A stretch of 39,042 nucleotides of DNA from a virus: IMG/VR virus record IMGVR_UViG_3300047409_000156, positions 1-39,042 of that record; one strand, 5' to 3'. Shown one piece after another: positions 4,675-39,042 of this stretch. The notes beneath the pieces were generated by a model that had not been told where the DNA came from, made no database searches, and saw only the letters and a list, made by a program, of their open reading frames with translations. Both the position numbers and the translations under genes were made by a program. Position 1 is the first letter of the stretch. Every line of letters begins with the position of its first letter.

Positions 4675-5132
4675 GGGGGGAGCAGCCTCGCCGCGACAAT
4701 GCACTACGCCTTAAAAAGGCGCGGTTCCTGGAGGCGTTCGCTCGTTGCGGGACAGTGACCCACGCGGCCGCCGAGGTTGGTGTTGATCGTTCAGCTCACT
4801 ATCGTTGGCTGGAGGACGTGGAATACGCCGCGCTCTTCGTCGTAGCCGAGGAACAGGCGTTCGACAACCTGGAACGCGAGGCGCGGCGCAGGGCTGTTGA
4901 GGGCACCGAGAAGCCCGTCTACCAGGGCGGCGAACTGGTCGGGACCATCCGCGAGTACAGCGACACGCTCCTGATCTTCCTCATGAAGGGTGCACGGCCG
5001 TCGAAGTACCGTGAGCGCGTGGACGTGACGCTGGACGTGAAGCGCGAGATCGAACGTCTCACCAGCGATCCGGCCGAACGTGAGGCGGCCATCGCAGAGG
5101 CGCAGCGCATCCTCTCCGCGGCGAAGACCTGA
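4671..5132 (+). CDS. Terminase small subunit-like protein
   Basis: A 153-residue protein with a GTG start in a GTGA overlap. Residues about 15-45 contain a helix-turn-helix (FARCGTVTHAAAEVGVDRSA, followed by YRWLED) of the type used by small terminases to recognise the packaging site. The rest is helical and charged (ERLTSDPAEREAAIAEAQRI). Position directly upstream of the large terminase, sharing one base, strongly supports the call. It would select phage DNA and regulate the motor. Confidence 0.82.
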   Translation: MRGEQPRRDNALRLKKARFLEAFARCGTVTHAAAEVGVDRSAHYRWLEDVEYAALFVVAEEQAFDNLEREARRRAVEGTEKPVYQGGELVGTIREYSDTLLIFLMKGARPSKYRERVDVTLDVKREIERLTSDPAEREAAIAEAQRILSAAKT

Positions 5133-6460
5133 TGCTGGGAACGAACCCCGCGCAGGAGCTCGCCGCCTTCGCGGTTGCTCGGGTTCGTCTTGCTCAGGCA
5201 TCAGCCCCGACCGAAGCGCTCGCATGGCGGGCAAAGGCCCGACCGGAGCAGCTTCCGCCCGACTCATGGCGAACGTGGTACGTCCGCGGTGGGCGTGGTT
5301 CAGGGAAGACCTGGACCGGCGCGAACACTCTCGCGGAGATGGCGCTGCAGGAACCGGGCGACTGGGGCGTGGTGGCCCCGACCTTCGCGGACATGCGGGA
5401 CAAGTGCGTCGAGGGACCGTCTGGGTTGCTCCGAGCGTTCGGTACCAATGCCGTCGAGGTACGGCGCGGCGCGTCAAGGGTCGTGGAGGCGTGGAACCGC
5501 TCGCTGGGTGATCTGCGTCTCCGCAACGGTTCGGTGATCCACGGCGACGGCGCCGATGACGGAGCGCCGACCATCCAGGGCTATAACCTGCGCGGCCTGT
5601 GGGCCGATGAGGTTGGCCTGTGGAAGGCGTGGCGACAGGCCTGGGAAGAGTCGATCCGCTACGCCGTCCGCCTCAGTCCTGCGCGCATCGTGGCGACCGG
5701 CACGCCGAAGCGTGGACACCCGCTCGTCAAGGCACTCATGGCTGACGACAACGTGACCAAGACGCTGCTGCGTACCACGGACAACGCGGCCAACCTCGAT
5801 CCCGACATGCTCGCGGAACTGCTCGCCAGGTACGGCGGGACGACGCTGGGTCGGCAGGAGCTCGAGGGCGAGATCCTGACCGACGTTCCGGGCGCACTCT
5901 GGAAGCGCAGTCTCATCGACATGCTGCGCGTTCCGAAGGCGCCGGAACTCACGCGTATCGTGGTAGCGATTGATCCATCTGCCACGTCAACAGAGTCAGC
6001 GGACGAGTGCGGCATCGTCGTGGACGGCATCGACATCCAGGGGCACGGTTACACGCTCGAAGACCTTTCGCTGCGGGCCTCTCCGAGCGACTGGGCGATG
6101 CACGCCGTCGCGGCCTATCACCGGCACAAGGCCGACCGCATCGTGGCCGAGTCCAACAACGGCGGTGAGATGGTCAGTGCGGTCATCCACGCCGTCGACC
6201 CATCGGTCTCTGTGAAGCTCGTCCATGCGAGTCGGGGCAAGCACACCCGCGCTGAGCCGATCGCTGCGCTCTATGAGCAGGGACGCTGGCACCATGTCGG
6301 CTTCTTCGAGGAACTGGAAGACCAGCAGTGTTCATGGAACCCGGAGACAGACCTGAACTCACCGGACCGCATGGACGCCCACGTCTGGGGCGCTACCGAG
6401 CTCCTGGTAGCGCAGGGTGGCTGGGGCGCGGTGACCGGCTCTGCGGGAGGCGTGGCATGA
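5132..6460 (+). CDS. terL: Terminase large subunit
   Basis: A 442-residue packaging motor. The ATPase domain has Walker A GGRGSGKT (residues 53-60), Walker B LWADE with Asp159-Glu160, and a coupling motif ATGTPKRG (188-195). The C-terminal RNase H-like nuclease has acidic residues at Asp281 (VAIDPS), Glu340 (VAESNNGG) and Asp415 (DRMDAHVWG). Length and motif order fit the Terminase_6 type. It cuts concatemeric or circular phage DNA and pumps it into the prohead through the portal encoded downstream. The GC-rich gene shares its first base with the end of the small subunit gene. Confidence 0.95.
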   Translation: MLGTNPAQELAAFAVARVRLAQASAPTEALAWRAKARPEQLPPDSWRTWYVRGGRGSGKTWTGANTLAEMALQEPGDWGVVAPTFADMRDKCVEGPSGLLRAFGTNAVEVRRGASRVVEAWNRSLGDLRLRNGSVIHGDGADDGAPTIQGYNLRGLWADEVGLWKAWRQAWEESIRYAVRLSPARIVATGTPKRGHPLVKALMADDNVTKTLLRTTDNAANLDPDMLAELLARYGGTTLGRQELEGEILTDVPGALWKRSLIDMLRVPKAPELTRIVVAIDPSATSTESADECGIVVDGIDIQGHGYTLEDLSLRASPSDWAMHAVAAYHRHKADRIVAESNNGGEMVSAVIHAVDPSVSVKLVHASRGKHTRAEPIAALYEQGRWHHVGFFEELEDQQCSWNPETDLNSPDRMDAHVWGATELLVAQGGWGAVTGSAGGVA

Positions 6461-9431: not shown

Positions 9432-10961
9432 GTGACCACGGGGCGCTACCTGATCCGCGATGTCCTGACGCGCCAACTGGAGAAGCAACCTCCCGTCGTC
9501 AGGGGACCGCAGGGCGAGGAAGGCCCGCCCGGTCAGTCCGGTCCGCAAGGACCGCGAGGCGCGGCGGGCAAGGCCGGCATCGCCCTGGACGGTGTGACGG
9601 GGCCTGTCGGTCCCATCGGTCCCATTGGTCCGACCGGCGTCACCGGTCCGAAGGGCGACACGGGAGAAACCGGCCCGAGCGGCGCGCAGGGCTTTACCGG
9701 GCCGCCCGGTCCCGCGGGTGGTGGGCGCAAGGACGACGCGCTGAACGCGTGGGCGTTCCAGTCCGCGGCGTTCAACCTGATCGACCACGGCACGCCACTG
9801 GGAACCGTCACCACCCTGGACTTCGAGGGACCGGGCGTCACTGTCAGTCGTGTCGCGCCGGGAGCTGGAACGGCGACCATCACGGGCGGGGGAGGCGGCA
9901 GCGGGACCGCTCTCGAGGACACCATCGCGCAGACCGGCCACGTCCTCGCGGTCGGGGACATCGTCCGCTTTGACGGGGCGAACTACGTCGTGGCGCAGGC
10001 CGACTCGGCGGCGAACGCCGAGGTCGTGGGCATCGTCTCGGCAGTGGCGGACGCAGACCATTTCACGCTGACGACCTCCGGCCTCATCGACGGGCTGGCG
10101 GGCCTGACGGCGGGCGAGGTGTACTTCCTCTCCGAAGTCACGCCTGGCCTGCTGACCACCACCGAGCCGACCGGTGTGGGGGAGGTGAGCAAGCCGGTCC
10201 TCATCGCCATCTCCACGACGAGCGGCTACCTGACGAACTTCCGCGGCTCGGTCATCGCGGTGCCCATCGCCGCCTCCGACGTAACGGTAGATCCGACCGT
10301 GGCCGATGCAGCGGACGTGCAGGCGGCGCTGGAGACGCTGGCCATCACAGCCATCGTTTCGGAAACGGAGCCGAGCCCAAAGCGGTCGGGCATGATCTGG
10401 GTGCGAACGTACCCGACCAATCTGTTGAGCGCGCCCCCGCCCTATCCCGCCTATGTCTGCGACTCTCTCGGTGACTGGCTGGAGATCGGCCAGGCGCACT
10501 TTGATGGGAATGGCGTCCTTCGCAGCCTCGTCCAGACGGTGGACGACAGCGTGACGATTGCGTACTACGACGCCTCGGGAGTATTGCGCGCGTATATCCC
10601 GATCGCGACCTCGGGTATCGACCTCTGGATGTACGACGACGCCGCGAACCTGCGCACGATGCTCAACATCAACGGCGGGACACATCCGGACATCGAAGGT
10701 GTGATCCGCAACGCGAGCGGTGACACGATGGCCGCTTTCACCGTGGCTGGCGATGCTGACGGTGGTATCCAGCTTCAGATCGGTGATGGTTCGGACAACA
10801 TCCTCACCTTCAAGGACAACGGACTAAAGATCATCAGCACTGGGATCGGTTTCTTTGGCACGGCCCCGACTGGTCAGCCAATCGTTCCGCTGACTAGTCC
10901 GACTATTCAGAACGTCATTGATGCGCTCACGTCAATCGGCCTTGTTCTGCAGAGTGACTGA
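9432..10961 (+). CDS. Collagen-like tail fibre 1
   Basis: A 509-residue protein from GTG 9432. Residues about 24-98 are a collagen-like run of Gly-X-Y triplets ([19 protein letters not shown] and similar). A beta-rich middle part follows ([20 protein letters not shown], then a long segment to about residue 275) of the kind found in phage fibres, and the last 170 residues form another beta-rich region. The collagen part should trimerise into a rod that carries receptor-binding domains. It is unusual that this gene follows the portal instead of the other tail genes. Confidence 0.82.
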
Positions 10962-11003
10962 CGTGAGCCCATCCTCCCTGCCCTGCCTGTCCGCGGAGAC
11001 GGC

Positions 11004-12977
11004 ATGAGCACGTCCGCCTTCGAGGCTGCGCAGGGCTCGCCAGGACCGACCGGCGCGACCGGGCCTGATGGTTCGACCGGCCCAGCAGGCTCGACGGGTA
11101 GCGCAGGCGCGACAGGCTCTACGGGGACGGCCGGCGCAACGGGCAGCGCAGGTTCGACTGGTCCTGCTGGTGCTACGGGTTCGGCAGGCGCAACTGGCAG
11201 CGTCGGCGCAACGGGCGCAGGTGGAACAACCGGCAGCACCGGAACGCAGGGCGCGCAAGGTCTGACCGGCACCGTAGGAGTCACTGGTCAGCAAGGGCAG
11301 ACAGGCTCTACGGGCACCCAAGGCGTTCAAGGACTCACAGGCACGGTCGGAGACACGGGCACGCAGGGCACGCAGGGCATCCAGGGGATCACGGGTGCAA
11401 CGGGTACTCAGGGTATCCAGGGGATCACGGGATCAACCGGGATAGCTGGGGCTACGGGCGTTGCCGGCGTCACGGGCAGCGTCGGCGCGACCGGAACTGC
11501 GGGCACGAATGGCATCACCGGCCCGACCGGCGTCGTCGGTGTAACGGGAGCCACCGGCCCGCAAGGTATCCAGGGCCTGACGGGAGTGGCGGGGGTTACC
11601 GGTTCAGTCGGCCTGACAGGATCAGGACTCACGGGCGTGACGGGGGTCACGGGCCTGACCGGCGCAGGGATCACCGGTGTCACGGGTGTTCAGGGCCTCA
11701 CCGGAGCGCAGGCGCAGACAGGCAATACCGGCGTGGCGGGTGTGACCGGGAATACGGGCGTCATCGGAGTAACGGGCGCAACCGGCCTCACGGGCGCGGG
11801 CGTTACCGGAGTCACTGGCGCAACCGGCCCCACCCCGACCTTCGTCATCCCCGCGATCACCTTCTCCGGCGTTGCGCAGACCGGCACGGCAGGCACGGCG
11901 ATCAACTCGGATGCAGCGATTGCAGCGTTCACCGGCACGGCACCCGTGGCCCAGAACTACGGATCCGCCTCCTCGACAGGCACATCGCTCTTCGCCGCCC
12001 GCAGCGACCATCTGCACGGTGAGACAGGACCGAAGCTTGAGATCTTCACCGTCACCACCGGGGTCTGGACCAAGACTGCCGGGGCGAAGCGCATATTCGT
12101 CCAGGTCTGGGGCGGCGGTGGAGGTGGAGGCGGGGGAACAGGAGCGGCGGCCGTCGCGGGTGGCGGGGGCGGTGGAGGTGGGGGTTACGCCGAAGCGTGG
12201 TTCGACCCGGCCGACGTCACCGGCGTGACCGGCGTCACCGTGGGAGTCGCGACCACGGGCGCGGCGCAGGGCGTGAACGGCGCATCTGGCAACTTCTCCG
12301 CGTTCGGTGCCTACCTGCAAGCATTCGGCGGTGGGGGCGGACAGGCCGGCGCAGCGGCCACTGGATCGGGTGGCGGTGGCGGTGGAGGGATGTGGGCCGG
12401 TGGCGCGAACGGCTCCGCTGCTGCCGGTGGGGCCGGTGGCGGGCCCGGAGGTGGTGCTGCGAACTCCACAGCGCAGGGGCCACAAGGTGGCGGTGGTGGA
12501 CAGACGCGTACGACGAACATGGGCGTTGCGTCCGGGATCGGCTACAACAACTGGGGCGGTGGAGGCGGTGGTGGGGGAACCTCCACGGGTGTCGCAGGCA
12601 CTGGCGGTTCCGGTACGACCTCCATCTACGGGGGTGGCGGTGGCGGGGCAGGAGGAGGCCGCACCACTGCCGTCGCAGGCTTCGCTGGCGGGCCGGGTGG
12701 CCTCGCGGGCGGGGCAGTGACAGCAGTGAACCAGACGGACGGTGCGGGCGGTACAGCAGGACTCTCAGGCGTTGCGGGCAGCCGCACCGGCTCGTGGGGC
12801 GGCGGTGGAGGTGGAGGAGGGGGTGGCACCGGCGCGGCTTCTGCCATTGCTGGTTCAGGTGCTCCCGGCGGCGCTCCTGGTGGGGGTGGCGGTGGAGGCG
12901 GCGGCGGCTCCGGCGCGCAGGGGGGCGGTGGCGGCGCAGGAGCGCGCGGCGAGGTCCGGGTGACGACGTGGGGCTGA
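11004..12977 (+). CDS. Collagen-like fibre 2 with polyglycine adhesin domain
   Basis: A 657-residue protein from ATG 11004, with a CGGAGA ribosome binding site. Residues about 12-275 are collagen-like and unusually rich in Gly-X-Thr triplets (for example [19 protein letters not shown]), with a few four-residue interruptions after residue 200. Then comes a motif common in phage fibres ([14 protein letters not shown], about residue 330), a strand segment ending in [10 protein letters not shown], and about 290 residues of glycine-rich repeats. The last part resembles polyglycine receptor-binding tips of tailed phages. It probably binds the host surface as a trimer. Thr in Gly-X-Thr triplets is the known glycosylation site in bacterial collagen-like proteins such as BclA. 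Confidence 0.85.
11040..11840 (+). repeat. Degenerate 9-bp repeats coding Gly-X-Thr/Ala triplets
   Basis: The DNA is built of short GGC-NNN-ACG/GCG units that encode the collagen-like rod of fibre 2. Several longer units recur nearly exactly, for example the one coding GIQGITG at about 11375-11395 and 11408-11430. Such repeats allow slippage or recombination to change rod length. Confidence 0.8.
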
Positions 12978-13107: not shown

Positions 13108-14265
13108 ATGACGCTGCACGTACTTGGCTTGCCGTGGACGGAGACGACGCGAGAGTGGGAGGCCGAAGCCTTCACCGCGCGCACGCGCGTCCTCGCCACG
13201 ATGATGAGCATGTACGGGAAGGTCGCTCTCTACGGCGGCGAGCGCAACGAGGCCGTGGTGACCGAGTACGTCCCCATCGTCGACCGCGCATGGCAGCAGC
13301 GCCACTTCCCCGGCCTGACCTCCGCGACGACGTTCAGCGACTATGACCCGTCACGTCCTCACTGGATAGAGTTCAACGTGCGCGCAGCGGACGCCATCCG
13401 CAAACGGGCGAAGCGCGGCGATCTTCTGGGCATCACGATGGGCGTCAGTCACCAGCTCACAGCGACCCTGCTCGCAGACCTGGAACTCGTCCCGGTCGAA
13501 GTCGGGATCGGCTACAAGGGCGTCTGGGCACCGTTCAGGGTGTTCGAGTCGTGGGCGTGGCGTTACTTCCACTCGGGCTACGCAGATGGCATCGCGACGG
13601 GGCAGGGTCAGGAGGGCGCTGATCTGCTCTCGGACGTGCGCAACTTCGATGAGACGATCCCCAGGGCCTACGAAGTGGCGGACTTCCCAGAGGGCCAAGG
13701 AGACGGTGGGTACTTCCTCTATCTCGGCCGCGTGGTTGCGCGCAAGGGCCCGCACATCGCCGCGGACGTATGCAGAAGGATCGGCGCGAAGCTCATCGTG
13801 GCGGGCCAGGGCGTGGCGTCGGACGAACTGGGGCGCATCACCGCGACGGACGGGACGATCCTCGAGGGCGACGTGGAGTACGTCGGAGTGGTGGGAGTGG
13901 AGGAACGCGCCAGGCTGATGGGCGGTGCCATCGCCACGTTCTGCCCGACGCTATATTTGGAGCCCGGAGGGGGCGTAGGGATCGAGTCGCTTCTAACGGG
14001 CACGCCCATCCTGTCCGCCGAGTGGGGCTGTTTCCGGGAGTACATCGTCCCCGGAGTCAACGGCTATACCTGTCCGACGCTCGCGGATTTCATGAACGGA
14101 GCGAAGTCAGCCGGTTCCCTGAACCGCTACGCCATCCGTCAAAATGCCATCGGACGTTATGGCACTGATGCGATCGGGCCTCAGTTCGACAGGTATTTTC
14201 GGCGTCTCAGAACTCTCCGTCGCGAGGGATGGTATGAAACGCCTCCGATGCGGCTTGTCGCATAG
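13108..14265 (+). CDS. GT-B glycosyltransferase (GT4-like)
   Basis: A 385-residue protein. The C-terminal half has the GT-B pattern: GYFLYLGRVVARKGPHIAAD (about 201-220, the nucleotide-binding start of the second Rossmann domain), IVAGQG (about 230-235) and EPGGGVGIESLLTGTPILSA (about 285-304), the equivalent of the E-x7-E sugar-nucleotide signature. The N-terminal half is less typical but begins with a short strand and glycine. It should transfer a sugar from a nucleotide donor, but acceptor and donor are unknown. It directly follows the collagen-like fibres, and its 3' end overlaps the HNH gene on the opposite strand by 59 bases. Confidence 0.82.
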   Translation: MTLHVLGLPWTETTREWEAEAFTARTRVLATMMSMYGKVALYGGERNEAVVTEYVPIVDRAWQQRHFPGLTSATTFSDYDPSRPHWIEFNVRAADAIRKRAKRGDLLGITMGVSHQLTATLLADLELVPVEVGIGYKGVWAPFRVFESWAWRYFHSGYADGIATGQGQEGADLLSDVRNFDETIPRAYEVADFPEGQGDGGYFLYLGRVVARKGPHIAADVCRRIGAKLIVAGQGVASDELGRITATDGTILEGDVEYVGVVGVEERARLMGGAIATFCPTLYLEPGGGVGIESLLTGTPILSAEWGCFREYIVPGVNGYTCPTLADFMNGAKSAGSLNRYAIRQNAIGRYGTDAIGPQFDRYFRRLRTLRREGWYETPPMRLVA

Positions 14266-21009: not shown

Positions 21010-21641
21010 TCGCAGCCGTCATCGCAACCCGCTTCGAGCCGCCGCAGTTGACGCCGCTCCTGGAGACGCTGCGCGCCGATGGCGTCCTGCCCGTGGTCGT
21101 CCACGACACCGGCACCCACGCCCCGGACTGGTCCCTCTACCGACTCTGGAACGACGGTGTACGACAGGCCATCGAGCGCGGCGCGGAGTACGTCTGCGTG
21201 ATGAATGACGACGTGACGATCTTGCCGGGGACGCTCAATCTCATGGCTGGGTGGCTCGAGGAAGTGGCCGAATACGGCGTCCTATATCCCGACTGCAAAC
21301 GCGCTACTTCCGAGAGGTTTGGGCATTTCCGCGCCATGATCACGCAGGGGACATGGGGCGCGGGAGCGATGACCGGCTTCTGCTTCATGTTCCGCGCCGA
21401 CCTCGACGTTCCCTTCGACGAGAAGTACCAGCTCTGGTACGGCGACGATGACTTCGAGGAGCGGGTACGGGCGAAGGGCCTGCTCGTGGCGAGGATCGAT
21501 GGCCTGCCGATCGACCACGCCGCGATGGGTTCCACGTCGCTCGTTGACCACGAGACGGTGATGGCGTGGATTGAGAACGACCGCCGTCGCTGGGAGACGC
21601 GAACCTACTACACCGTCCAGACGGAAGCGGTGACCGCGTGA
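21000..21641 (+). CDS. GT-A glycosyltransferase (GT2-like)
   Basis: A 213-residue protein from ATG 21000, overlapping the upstream gene by ten bases. It shows NDDV (69-72), the metal and nucleotide-sugar site following the helix NDGVRQAIERGAEYVCVM, then GAMTGFCFMFRADLDVPFDE and GDDDFEERVRAKG (about 148-160), which correspond to the acceptor loop and ED motif of GT2 enzymes. It probably adds one sugar residue to a glycan or protein. No signal or membrane segment is seen, so it acts in the cytoplasm. Confidence 0.82.
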   Translation: MALIAAVIATRFEPPQLTPLLETLRADGVLPVVVHDTGTHAPDWSLYRLWNDGVRQAIERGAEYVCVMNDDVTILPGTLNLMAGWLEEVAEYGVLYPDCKRATSERFGHFRAMITQGTWGAGAMTGFCFMFRADLDVPFDEKYQLWYGDDDFEERVRAKGLLVARIDGLPIDHAAMGSTSLVDHETVMAWIENDRRRWETRTYYTVQTEAVTA

Positions 21642-22957
21642 CCCGCGTCCTGTTCCTGGGTGATGTCGCGCAGACAGGGTTCGGCACGGTCACGCTCTCA
21701 TTGGGCCGCGAGCTCCTGGCGCTGGGCCTCGACCTTCGCTTCTGCTCGCTCAACGAACCGACGCCGGGATCGGGCTGGTGGAGTGATCTGCCGGAGGAGA
21801 TCAGATCACGAACCGCCAGTCTCGAGGCCGAGGATGGGTGGCTGGCCTTCGGTGAACCGGAGACGGCCGAACGGCTCGCCGCGATGTTCAGTGGCGGGTT
21901 GTTCGCGGACGGCTGGACACCGGACGCGGCAATCATCCTCGGAGATCCCGGCAGCCTTGAGGCGTCCCCGGTCCTCGACATCATCCCGGACGGCCTGCCG
22001 GTCCTGCACTACGTCCCCATCGAGGGCATCGGCTCCCCGCCGGCATGGCGGGCGCTCTGGCAGAAGGCGCAACCTGTCCCCACTTCTCGCTTCGGCGCGA
22101 TGGAGCTCGAACGCCTGTTGGGCCGTCCCGTGCCGTACGTCTACCACGGCGTGGACACGCAGACCTACCACCGGCCTTCCCGCGAACACCCGATCGTCCT
22201 GCACGACCGGACGAACGGCAGGGACTTCCGCGTGCTTCGCAGCCAGCGCGAGTGCAAGGAGTTCTTCGGCCTCGATCCTGCGCGTTTCCTGATCCTGCGC
22301 ACGGACCGCCTGATGCCGCGTAAGCGCTATCCGTCCCTGCTGCGTTCGCTGGCCGTGGTGATGGCGCAGCGCGACGAGGTGGACTTCCTCTGGCACTGCC
22401 GCTCCGTGGACCAGGGCGGCAACCTGTTCACCTTCCGCTCGCAGTTCCCGCTCGATGTGGCGCGAAGAATGCAACCCACCGGCTACCACGACCAGGGCCT
22501 CGGCGCGCCGGCCGAGATGATGGCGGCGCTCTACGCTGCCGCTGACATCTACGTCTCCACGTCGGCGGAAGGGTTCGGCCTGACCATCGCGGAGGCGATG
22601 GCGTGCGGCACGCCAGTCGTTGCGATGGACTACAGCTCCGTGCCCGAAGTGCTGGGAGCCGATCCCCTGCCCATCTCCACGTCCTTCACCGCGCACACCA
22701 TCCGCCAGGCTCCCGGCGGTCTGCTCGTTCCCCCTGCCTACCTCGACGACAACATCTACGGCTACTGGTGGGCGGCGGTGAACGAACGCCTCTTCGCCTC
22801 GGCCGTGATGGGTGTCGTGATGCTGCGCAGGCAGGAGCGGCAGAACATCGGCGCACGCGGGGCGATCCACGTCGGCGCTGCGTTCCGGTGGAGCAGGGCG
22901 GCGGAGCAGTTCCGCGATCTCATCATGGCGGCACTACCCCAGGAGGTCGCGGCGTGA
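21638..22957 (+). CDS. GT-B glycosyltransferase, family 4 type
   Basis: A 439-residue protein from GTG 21638. The N-terminal domain begins RVLFLGDVAQTGFGTVTLSL, with the Gly-x-Gly donor loop common in GT4. The C-terminal domain has ILRTDRLMPRKRYPSLLRSL, then ADIYVSTSAEGFGLTIAEAM and ACGTPVVAMDYSSVPEVL (about 302-340). These are the classical E-x7-E signature. It completes the second glycan cassette, and its stop overlaps the head-tail connector gene. Donor and acceptor are unknown. Confidence 0.9.
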   Translation: MTRVLFLGDVAQTGFGTVTLSLGRELLALGLDLRFCSLNEPTPGSGWWSDLPEEIRSRTASLEAEDGWLAFGEPETAERLAAMFSGGLFADGWTPDAAIILGDPGSLEASPVLDIIPDGLPVLHYVPIEGIGSPPAWRALWQKAQPVPTSRFGAMELERLLGRPVPYVYHGVDTQTYHRPSREHPIVLHDRTNGRDFRVLRSQRECKEFFGLDPARFLILRTDRLMPRKRYPSLLRSLAVVMAQRDEVDFLWHCRSVDQGGNLFTFRSQFPLDVARRMQPTGYHDQGLGAPAEMMAALYAAADIYVSTSAEGFGLTIAEAMACGTPVVAMDYSSVPEVLGADPLPISTSFTAHTIRQAPGGLLVPPAYLDDNIYGYWWAAVNERLFASAVMGVVMLRRQERQNIGARGAIHVGAAFRWSRAAEQFRDLIMAALPQEVAA

Positions 22958-31654: not shown

Positions 31655-32563
31655 ATGACGCGCGAGATCAGCAGCATCTTCAGCATCGGCCTCTTCGCGT
31701 CTCGGCCGGCGTCTGGCACGTCCACGGGCGACCACTACTTCGCCACAGATGTGGGGATCAACTATCGATGGTCCGGGGCGGCATGGGTTCCCGAACCGCC
31801 TCTTGACTCGTCCCTGTCCATCTCCGACATCACGACGAACAACTCCACGACGGGCCATCACGGCTTCCTCCCGAAGCTCTCCGGGACCGGCGTGCAGTTC
31901 CTCAACGGCCTCGGCCAGTGGGTGACGGGTTCGGGTGGCGGAACGACTGGCGCGGCAGGATCGACCGGAGCCACAGGGCCTGCCGGCGTCACGGGCCCCA
32001 CAGGCGTCACAGGAGCCACGGGGACGGGTCAGACGGGCGCAACCGGCACTGCGGGCAGCAACGGCACGACCGGCGTCACAGGGGCCACAGGAGAGGTCGG
32101 CGCGACGGGGCCCGGAGTGGGCAGTACGGGCGTAACCGGAGCAACCGGTGCGACAGGCTTCTCGCCGAGCTTCCAGGTCGCGCAGCTCGCGGCGGCCGTA
32201 CCCATCAATACCGGCCCCGGCAACTTCATGACCGGCCCGTCCATCGTCCTCGGCGCGACCGGCGACTACATCTTCGGGGGCACCGTCACCGTCAACCAGT
32301 CCACCGGCAACTCGAACGCCTATACCGCGAAGCTCTGGAACGGCACCACCGTCCTCGCCTCGACCGAACAGGGCATCCCGCTCGGCGCTGCCCTCACCCG
32401 TCCGATGACGCTGTCGCTCCATGGCGCGGCGAGCGGCGTCTCGGGGACGTGGTACATCAGCGTGGCCGGAAACGGCGGGCCGACTGGATCGATCCTCGCC
32501 ACCGTTCCCGACAGCGGGCCTTCGGGTACCGCCTCGACGTTGACGGCACTGCGCGTGGGGTAG
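31655..32563 (+). CDS. Collagen-like tail fibre 3
   Basis: A 302-residue protein with AGGAG nine bases upstream. The N-terminal motif GLFASRPASGTSTGDHYFAT, ending in YRWSGAAWV, is common at the attachment end of phage fibres. Residues about 95-170 are collagen-like Gly-X-Thr/Ala triplets ([19 protein letters not shown]). The last 130 residues form a beta-rich head (FGGTVTVNQSTGNSNAYTAK). It is the third Gly-X-Thr fibre of this genome, this one at the normal place after the tail tip genes. Confidence 0.82.
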   Translation: MTREISSIFSIGLFASRPASGTSTGDHYFATDVGINYRWSGAAWVPEPPLDSSLSISDITTNNSTTGHHGFLPKLSGTGVQFLNGLGQWVTGSGGGTTGAAGSTGATGPAGVTGPTGVTGATGTGQTGATGTAGSNGTTGVTGATGEVGATGPGVGSTGVTGATGATGFSPSFQVAQLAAAVPINTGPGNFMTGPSIVLGATGDYIFGGTVTVNQSTGNSNAYTAKLWNGTTVLASTEQGIPLGAALTRPMTLSLHGAASGVSGTWYISVAGNGGPTGSILATVPDSGPSGTASTLTALRVG

Positions 32564-36849: not shown

Positions 36850-37365
36850 ATGCCACGCGCATATCTACGACTTGACCCCGGCTTTGACGAACACAAAGAG
36901 GGGTACCCCGATGGGCCGTACGCCGCGCTCATCGCCTGCTTTTGCCAGGGTGAACTCCAGCCGAGGCGTGGTCGCTTTCGCAGCGAGCGCTATTTGCGTG
37001 CCATCCTCGGACCGCGCGCCAAACACGTTTCCTACCTCATTCAGCACGGCGATCTGATCGTGCTTCCAGATGGACGCCTCTACATCGACGGCTGGGACGA
37101 GTGGCAGGAAGGCGACTGGAAAGTAACGGAACGTGTAACGCGCATCCGCAACCGAAGACACGGTGACGTAACGGTTGGTGTAACGGGCGATGTAACGCCC
37201 GCTGTAACGGTGCCTGTAACGGCTCTCCGTCAGAACGGAGCGGAGCGGAGCATTAGCGGTGCGCCACGGTCGCCCGTTACGGCGACCCAGAGCGCGTTTG
37301 ATAAGGCCGCTGAAAGAACGTACAGGGAGTCGATCGCCCCCTTCCGGGTGAAGGACGAGACGTGA
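36850..37365 (+). CDS. Replication initiator-like protein (DnaD/O-type)
   Basis: A 171-residue protein from ATG 36850, with GAGAGGA ribosome binding site. The N-terminal 90 residues (RAYLRLDPGFDEHKEGYPDG, then RYLRAILGPRAKHVSYLIQH and IDGWDEWQEGD) resemble the winged-helix start of phage replisome organisers. Residues 92-124 (KVTERVTRIR, then DVTVGVTGDVTPAVTVPVTA) are encoded by the iteron array, and the end is a short helix. In lambda, O protein binds iterons inside its own gene and recruits host helicase loading. Lack of phage polymerase, primase or helicase fits use of host enzymes. Confidence 0.7.
   Translation: MPRAYLRLDPGFDEHKEGYPDGPYAALIACFCQGELQPRRGRFRSERYLRAILGPRAKHVSYLIQHGDLIVLPDGRLYIDGWDEWQEGDWKVTERVTRIRNRRHGDVTVGVTGDVTPAVTVPVTALRQNGAERSISGAPRSPVTATQSAFDKAAERTYRESIAPFRVKDET
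37123..37221 (+). repeat. Iteron array, candidate replication origin
   Basis: GTAACG occurs at 37123, 37135, 37168, 37180, 37192, 37204 and 37216. The last five are exactly 12 bp apart and the first two form another 12-bp pair. An inverted copy CGTTAC lies at 37275. The array is inside the initiator-like gene, as in phage lambda and several other phages. It is the most likely origin of replication. Confidence 0.75.
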
Positions 37366-38857: not shown

Positions 38858-39042
38858 GAGTTCTCGTTGCCTGCGAGTTCTCCGGCCGCGTCCGCGATGC
38901 GTTCATCCGGCGCGGCCACGACGCGGTGAGCTGCGACCTCCTGCCCTCCGAGACACTGGGCCCGCACTACCAGGGCGACATCCGCGACATCCTCACGGAG
39001 CGCTGGGACTTGATGATCGCCCACCCTCCCTGCACGTTCTTG
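38854..39042 (+). CDS. C5-cytosine methyltransferase-like protein (N-terminal part, continues at position 1)
   Basis: GTG 38854 overlaps the nuclease stop and begins the 192-residue protein that continues at the start of the window. The first 63 residues encoded here include the Rossmann-type start and the PPC motif. Bases 38916-39042 duplicate 1-127. Confidence 0.72.
   Translation, partial: MRVLVACEFSGRVRDAFIRRGHDAVSCDLLPSETLGPHYQGDIRDILTERWDLMIAHPPCTFL
38916..39042. repeat. Right copy of 127-bp terminal direct repeat
   Basis: Exact copy of bases 1-127. The reading frame of the methyltransferase-like gene is unbroken when the copies are merged, so the genome is circular or circularly permuted. 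Confidence 0.97.

Follow-up and report, generated by a model that had tools for sequence, protein, structure and literature searches.

In the present study, seven direct copies of the hexamer GTAACG have been revealed within one gene of a phage-like record of 39,042 bp (66% GC), the whole of which is hereafter called the window, and this array is very probably the binding-site (iteron) part of a phage replication origin, judging from its sequence and from analogy with known origins. Herein, we propose that the origin lies within the phage's initiator gene itself, in the codons of the linker, and is bound and opened by the initiator, a reading to which we give a probability of about 85%. The array lies inside the gene, is conserved at the level of the DNA and is linked to initiator genes. 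The window begins and ends with an exact 127-bp terminal direct repeat (1-127 and 38916-39042), and therefore the record is probably a complete genome, either circular or terminally redundant. The features on which the argument rests are as follows.

36850-37365, plus strand: putative initiator gene, 171 aa (open reading frame and translation, AlphaFold model, hhalign homology)
Protein of this gene: winged helix at about residues 12-87, a basic ERVTRIRNRR stretch and a disordered linker (AlphaFold model)
37123-37221, plus strand: iteron array, seven direct GTAACG copies, conserved in relatives
37230-37251, plus strand: candidate second origin element, CAGAA CGGAG CGGAG CGGAG, the strongest period-5 stretch of the window
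37275-37280, minus strand: inverted iteron, reading CGTTAC on the plus strand and again encoding Val-Thr (position count)

First, the array is far denser than expected by chance. GTAACG starts at 37123, 37135, 37168, 37180, 37192, 37204 and 37216 on the plus strand; the last five copies follow one another at exactly 12 bp, the first two are also 12 bp apart, and 33 bp separate 37135 from 37168. This position count bore out exactly the preliminary description, made from the sequence alone, of seven copies, five of them at an exact 12-bp period, and one inverted copy. The consensus of the unit is TGTAACGG with a period of 12 bp. The whole window holds 19 copies of GTAACG against 7.35 +/- 2.65 expected, a count reached in none of 100 shuffles, and the seven copies in about 100 bp form the densest hexamer cluster of the window, the next unrelated word reaching five. 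GC skew was uninformative as an origin test, showing no clean switch at 37 kb and cumulative minima near 4-5 kb and 34-35 kb.

Second, the repetition appears to be kept for its DNA and not for its amino acids. The array is in frame with the gene and reads GTA-ACG, or Val-Thr, as had been described beforehand, and a Val-Thr repeat selected as a flexible or beta-prone linker, with the DNA repetition as a by-product, might produce a similar picture. The close family of the window gene does read the repeat mainly as Val-Thr, even where it is inverted (L013), and some of the GTAACG matches listed from other phages are GNVTGN tail-fibre repeats, in which the same DNA pattern arises purely at the protein level. 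The codon choice here is nevertheless extreme, since the gene's seven GTA codons all fall within the array although GTA provides only 18 of 344 Val codons (about 5%) across ten other long reading frames of this phage. With the protein held fixed and codons drawn according to usage, a mean of 0.67 copies was obtained and the observed eight were reached in none of 20,000 draws. Synonymous shuffling within the gene reached the observed count in 122 of 20,000 trials, which is a weaker null because all of the gene's GTA codons stem from the array. Moreover, homologous initiators encode VT, SN/GN/RN, ET, VS or TLH at this place, with frames mixed within one gene. The protein-repeat explanation was rejected on this codon bias and frame switching and is very improbable.

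Slippage can create tandem arrays, and a recent chance duplication without function was also considered. The six-base spacers vary between units while GTAACG itself is identical throughout; therefore, the array is not a fresh duplication. The word is also kept by relatives at 49-63% protein identity, and we regard a functionless duplication as the least credible of the alternatives.

Third, the array is found again in relatives of the gene. Five family members were obtained through protein and pattern searches (L002, L003, L006, L013 and L037); of these, L013 and L037 came from the search with the DNA pattern, and L002, L003 and L006 are the relatives obtained independently of the motif. GTAACG/CGTTAC arrays stand at the same place in four of these five: L003 has five copies of GTAACG and none elsewhere in its 16.4 kb, L037 five direct copies and one inverted (six in all), L013 three inverted copies at 12 bp and one direct (four in all), and L002 three exact copies together with GTATCG and GCAACG. 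No exact GTAACG was found in L006. The position of the array is constant, immediately behind EWQEGDxxVxERxxRxR, with C-termini that vary in length and sequence. The preliminary description had proposed that functional iterons should be conserved in position and not in exact protein sequence; both these relatives and the larger set of initiators described below agree, with the same word behind the winged helix in varying orientations and frames.

The protein encoded by the gene is likely a replication initiator, as its sequence and predicted structure suggest. The AlphaFold model has helices at 12-15, 21-34 and 46-65 and wing strands at 69-71 and 77-79; the mean pLDDT of the whole model is 63.4, with most winged-helix blocks at 80-93 and residues 104-159 below 50. 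The array (codons 92-124) is thus predicted by the model to fall mainly in linker codons just behind the winged helix. A profile-profile comparison (hhalign) with 27 phage initiators gave E = 2e-5 and a probability of 76%, the alignment staying in register across the basic stretch, and the layout of replisome organisers (Pfam PF09681, phrog_3926) is present, namely an N-terminal winged helix, a basic ERVxRxRxR stretch and a disordered linker. The profile of phrog_3926 ("replication initiation protein") matched three of six family members weakly (best E 0.0046), and in a structure search of viral models HTH, DUF1376, replisome-organiser and replication-initiation proteins ranked high, with E from 7e-4 upward. 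Foldseek against the PDB gave nothing under E 0.001 with the window model; a second look at the PDB gave matches of middling strength that included RepA and DnaD N-domains (Z 5.3-6.0, about residues 1-95), and the family profile found no sequence match there, solved RepA domains included. The window protein matched neither Pfam nor PHROG, its sequence found no match in phage records or in genome contigs when these were first searched, and it does not have the longer C-terminal part seen in two relatives.

Around this gene, RecE/YqaJ-like and weak RecT/Bet matches were observed upstream among the part of the reading frames that was scanned, and the three reading frames downstream, where a P-type loader was sought, gave no Pfam match. 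Elsewhere in the window, collagen-like or Gly-rich tandem repeats with tail-fibre-like matches occur at 9432-12977 and 31655-32560, and two glycosyltransferase-like genes (13108-14265 and 21638-22957) lie among structural genes.

Fourth, the word is linked to initiator genes in other phages. When IMG/VR was scanned for exact matches to three GTAACG copies spaced by 12 bp, at least 120 stretches were returned, and the families commonest among the listed matches were phrog_9474 (22 members), DnaD-like loaders (16), phrog_2509 (15), phrog_3926 (14) and primosomal proteins (10-12), where one protein may match several of the replication-initiation families counted. The permuted control word CGTAAG gave 41 contigs in all, and initiators accounted for 1 of 39. 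Translated in the listed initiators, the word gives VT, [SGRC]N[AVDEG] or TLH, and inverted copies again give VT. GTAACG as a universal word was rejected: epsilon15, PSA-2T, Rac YdaU and Vibrio 1.211.A use others, and L006 is without it. Apart from initiator genes, GTAACG/CGTTAC arrays were observed directly behind phage primase/helicase genes, partly overlapping the gene end (L044:7500-7700, L026:1990-2190, L087:4850-5060), largely without a clear reading frame and near AT-rich DNA; these may be intergenic origins in which the word is paired with another type of replication protein.

A further set of initiators was fetched by N-terminal protein patterns only, independently of the motif (83 genes, reduced to 58 by dereplication). 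De novo hexamer counting ranked CGTTTC/GAAACG first, with at least three copies in 160 bp in 31 genes and an 8-fold excess over the flanks; the CAGATA class came second, CGTTAC/GTAACG was 10.8-fold over the flanks, and GTCACG emerged as a third iteron word. At least three copies of one of these words (GTAACG, GAAACG or GTCACG) were present in 49 of 55 genes of at least 180 aa, counts that are not independent events since the members share ancestry and the patterns that fetched them started from examples with GTAACG; the appearance of GAAACG and GTCACG was not selected for by that seeding. The words peak at residues 90-120, in the same linker, and most genes show three to five orientation/frame states. 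In total, 344 words were observed against 138 +/- 9 under synonymous codon shuffling, and all 65 clusters of at least four words lay inside the initiator gene in loci with up to 6 kb of flank. Direct pairs are spaced by 11-12 and 22-23 bp, and the dyad GWAACGTTWC (a plus/minus pair at offset 4) accounts for 51 pairs. On a tree of the winged-helix domain the word types cluster (15 changes against a shuffled mean of 21.1; 0 of 200 shuffles), GTCACG forming one supported clade. This clustering fits co-evolution of reader and site as far as the sequences go, with the qualification that both lie in one gene and shared descent alone gives some of it.

Fifth, a second array follows the iterons. In the window this element begins about 10 nt after the last direct iteron and has a 5-bp unit that is purine-rich and rich in G, not AT-rich. 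Within L127-L209, directional CAGA-type arrays were scored in the stretch of some 90 bp that follows the iterons, and CAGA units spaced by 5 or 6 bp were found directly 3' of the iterons, on the coding strand, in all 52 iteron-bearing genes. Their mean was 6.2 units per 90 bp, compared with 0.38 in control segments and 0.04 in the reverse complement. The arrays often begin 4 nt past the last iteron, use all three reading frames and lie in regions where the local purine content reaches 0.72 and AT 0.59. Other families often place AAGAG, CAGGA, AGTAAG, TTTAGA or similar units of 5-6 bp in the same slot. Among the close relatives of the window gene, about nine such 5-bp units are present in L002 and a version with 6-bp units in L037, and L003, L006 and L013 show the element weakly or not at all. 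From position and sequence, the 5-bp array of the window is a candidate counterpart of the CAGA and AAGAG arrays of other initiators. DnaG start sites (CTG opposite CAGA arrays) were considered as a general role and rejected, the AAGAG-type arrays being without CTG.

Iteron-like repeats followed by such a track were recognised by inspection in CP2, Usaquen, VW-6S, ZX5, 673R7, ppBjS10J, D14H and Silvergun, and likewise in epsilon15, PSA-2T, Vibrio 1.211.A, the Rac prophage ydaU and lambda O. The homologous initiators of epsilon15 (L255, 2528-3205) and PSA-2T (L262) use the iteron word GCGGACA/TGTCCGC and share the same AGAGAAGAGAAGAG track. In the Rac prophage of E. coli K-12 (L251, ydaU 5120-5977), the linker of YdaU (DUF1376) carries a TGTTCAAAC/GTTTGAACA repeat cluster and then AAAGATACAGATAAAGATC; this cluster is a candidate relic origin of Rac.

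These observations bear on another alternative, in which the winged-helix protein represses its own operon from an operator inside the gene and the origin lies elsewhere. Repressors are commonly winged-helix proteins, and conservation at the DNA level suits any binding site. On the other hand, an array at codons 92-124 together with a second, strand-specific array is the origin layout of lambda and SPP1 and not the layout of an operator, and relatives annotated as replication initiators adjoin DnaB, DnaC or P-type genes. An autoregulatory operator is therefore improbable, if slightly less so than a repeat selected for its amino acids.

If the array is an origin embedded in the initiator gene, its action might be described as follows. 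As lambda O and SPP1 gp38 suggest, the N-terminal winged helix of the initiator would bind the TGTAACG iterons, with perhaps one protomer per helical turn and possibly dimers on dyads. By the same analogy, oligomerisation of the initiator would bend the DNA and open the adjacent strand-asymmetric array of 5-6 bp repeats, and the exposed strand, aided by transcription through the gene, might become the loading site of the host helicase. Alternatively, the second array may act in an R-loop under transcription, because the RNA across it is purine-rich.

Beyond the window, we consider it an evenly balanced proposition that many phage initiator families share one intragenic-origin grammar, in which iterons read by the winged helix (often TG[T/A]AACG) are written in the linker codons and are followed by a directional, purine-rich track of 5-6 nt units on the coding strand. 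The DNA code of the origin would then dictate the amino acids of the linker, and the track would be a single-strand landing site read by sequence, or an R-loop site, for helicase loading. If this is right, the replication origins of very many uncultured and cultured phages could be located directly in the sequence of the initiator gene, and odd repetitive linkers (VTxxVT, DTDTDT, REEKRREE) would be explained as DNA signals and not as protein features. The families would also amount to a natural set of matched winged helices and iterons from which DNA recognition could be decoded, and the repeated element could be examined as a phage counterpart of the DnaA-trio or of the RctB DUE repeats.

The anatomy proposed here, iterons and a second array, matches by analogy that of lambda and of SPP1 oriL, in which iterons are joined to an unwinding element; novelty was judged against open-licence papers. 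In-gene iterons are also found in the RepA_N-type class of plasmid initiators; the winged helices of its members 4pql, 5kbj and 4pta, like the DnaD N-domain (2v79), gave the middling structural alignments described above and no sequence match. Initiators of phrog_3926, 9474, 2509 and 2447 and DUF1376 or primosomal-protein initiators have the same gene layout, many with GTAACG and purine-rich repeats of 5-6 bp, and they differ in that the window protein is too diverged to match their profiles. The iteron words also differ between initiator clades (GAAACG, GTCACG, GCGGACA, TGTTCAAAC). The lambda origin lies inside gene O, with an unwinding region that is purine-asymmetric and A+T-rich (PMC5043065), and the parallel drawn in the preliminary description, with a different repeat and protein, was upheld at the level of layout: in both, the iterons occupy the linker-coding middle of the gene (codons about 116-145 of O), and they are followed in lambda by a purine-asymmetric, A+T-rich element and in the window by its candidate counterpart. 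Lambda differs in having 18-bp inverted-repeat iterons, compared with direct repeats of 6-8 bp at 12 bp here, and the second element of the window has a 5-bp unit rich in G; no similarity to O was found for the window initiator among the matches described above. SPP1 oriL lies inside gene 38, which encodes the replisome organiser G38P, and this protein binds the direct repeats and AT-rich unwinding element of which oriL is made (PMC6316719). Compared by layout, it resembles the window in placing direct repeats within an initiator gene, and differs in that SPP1 also possesses another origin, oriR, at a separate site and encodes a helicase and a loader of its own. The second array finds its nearest functional precedent in ori2 of Vibrio cholerae chromosome 2, where 5-nt DUE repeats, 5'-(G/A)ATCA-3', stand beside iterons and are recognised by RctB (PMC10797057), a functional analogy only, as ori2 is neither phage-borne nor inside its initiator gene.
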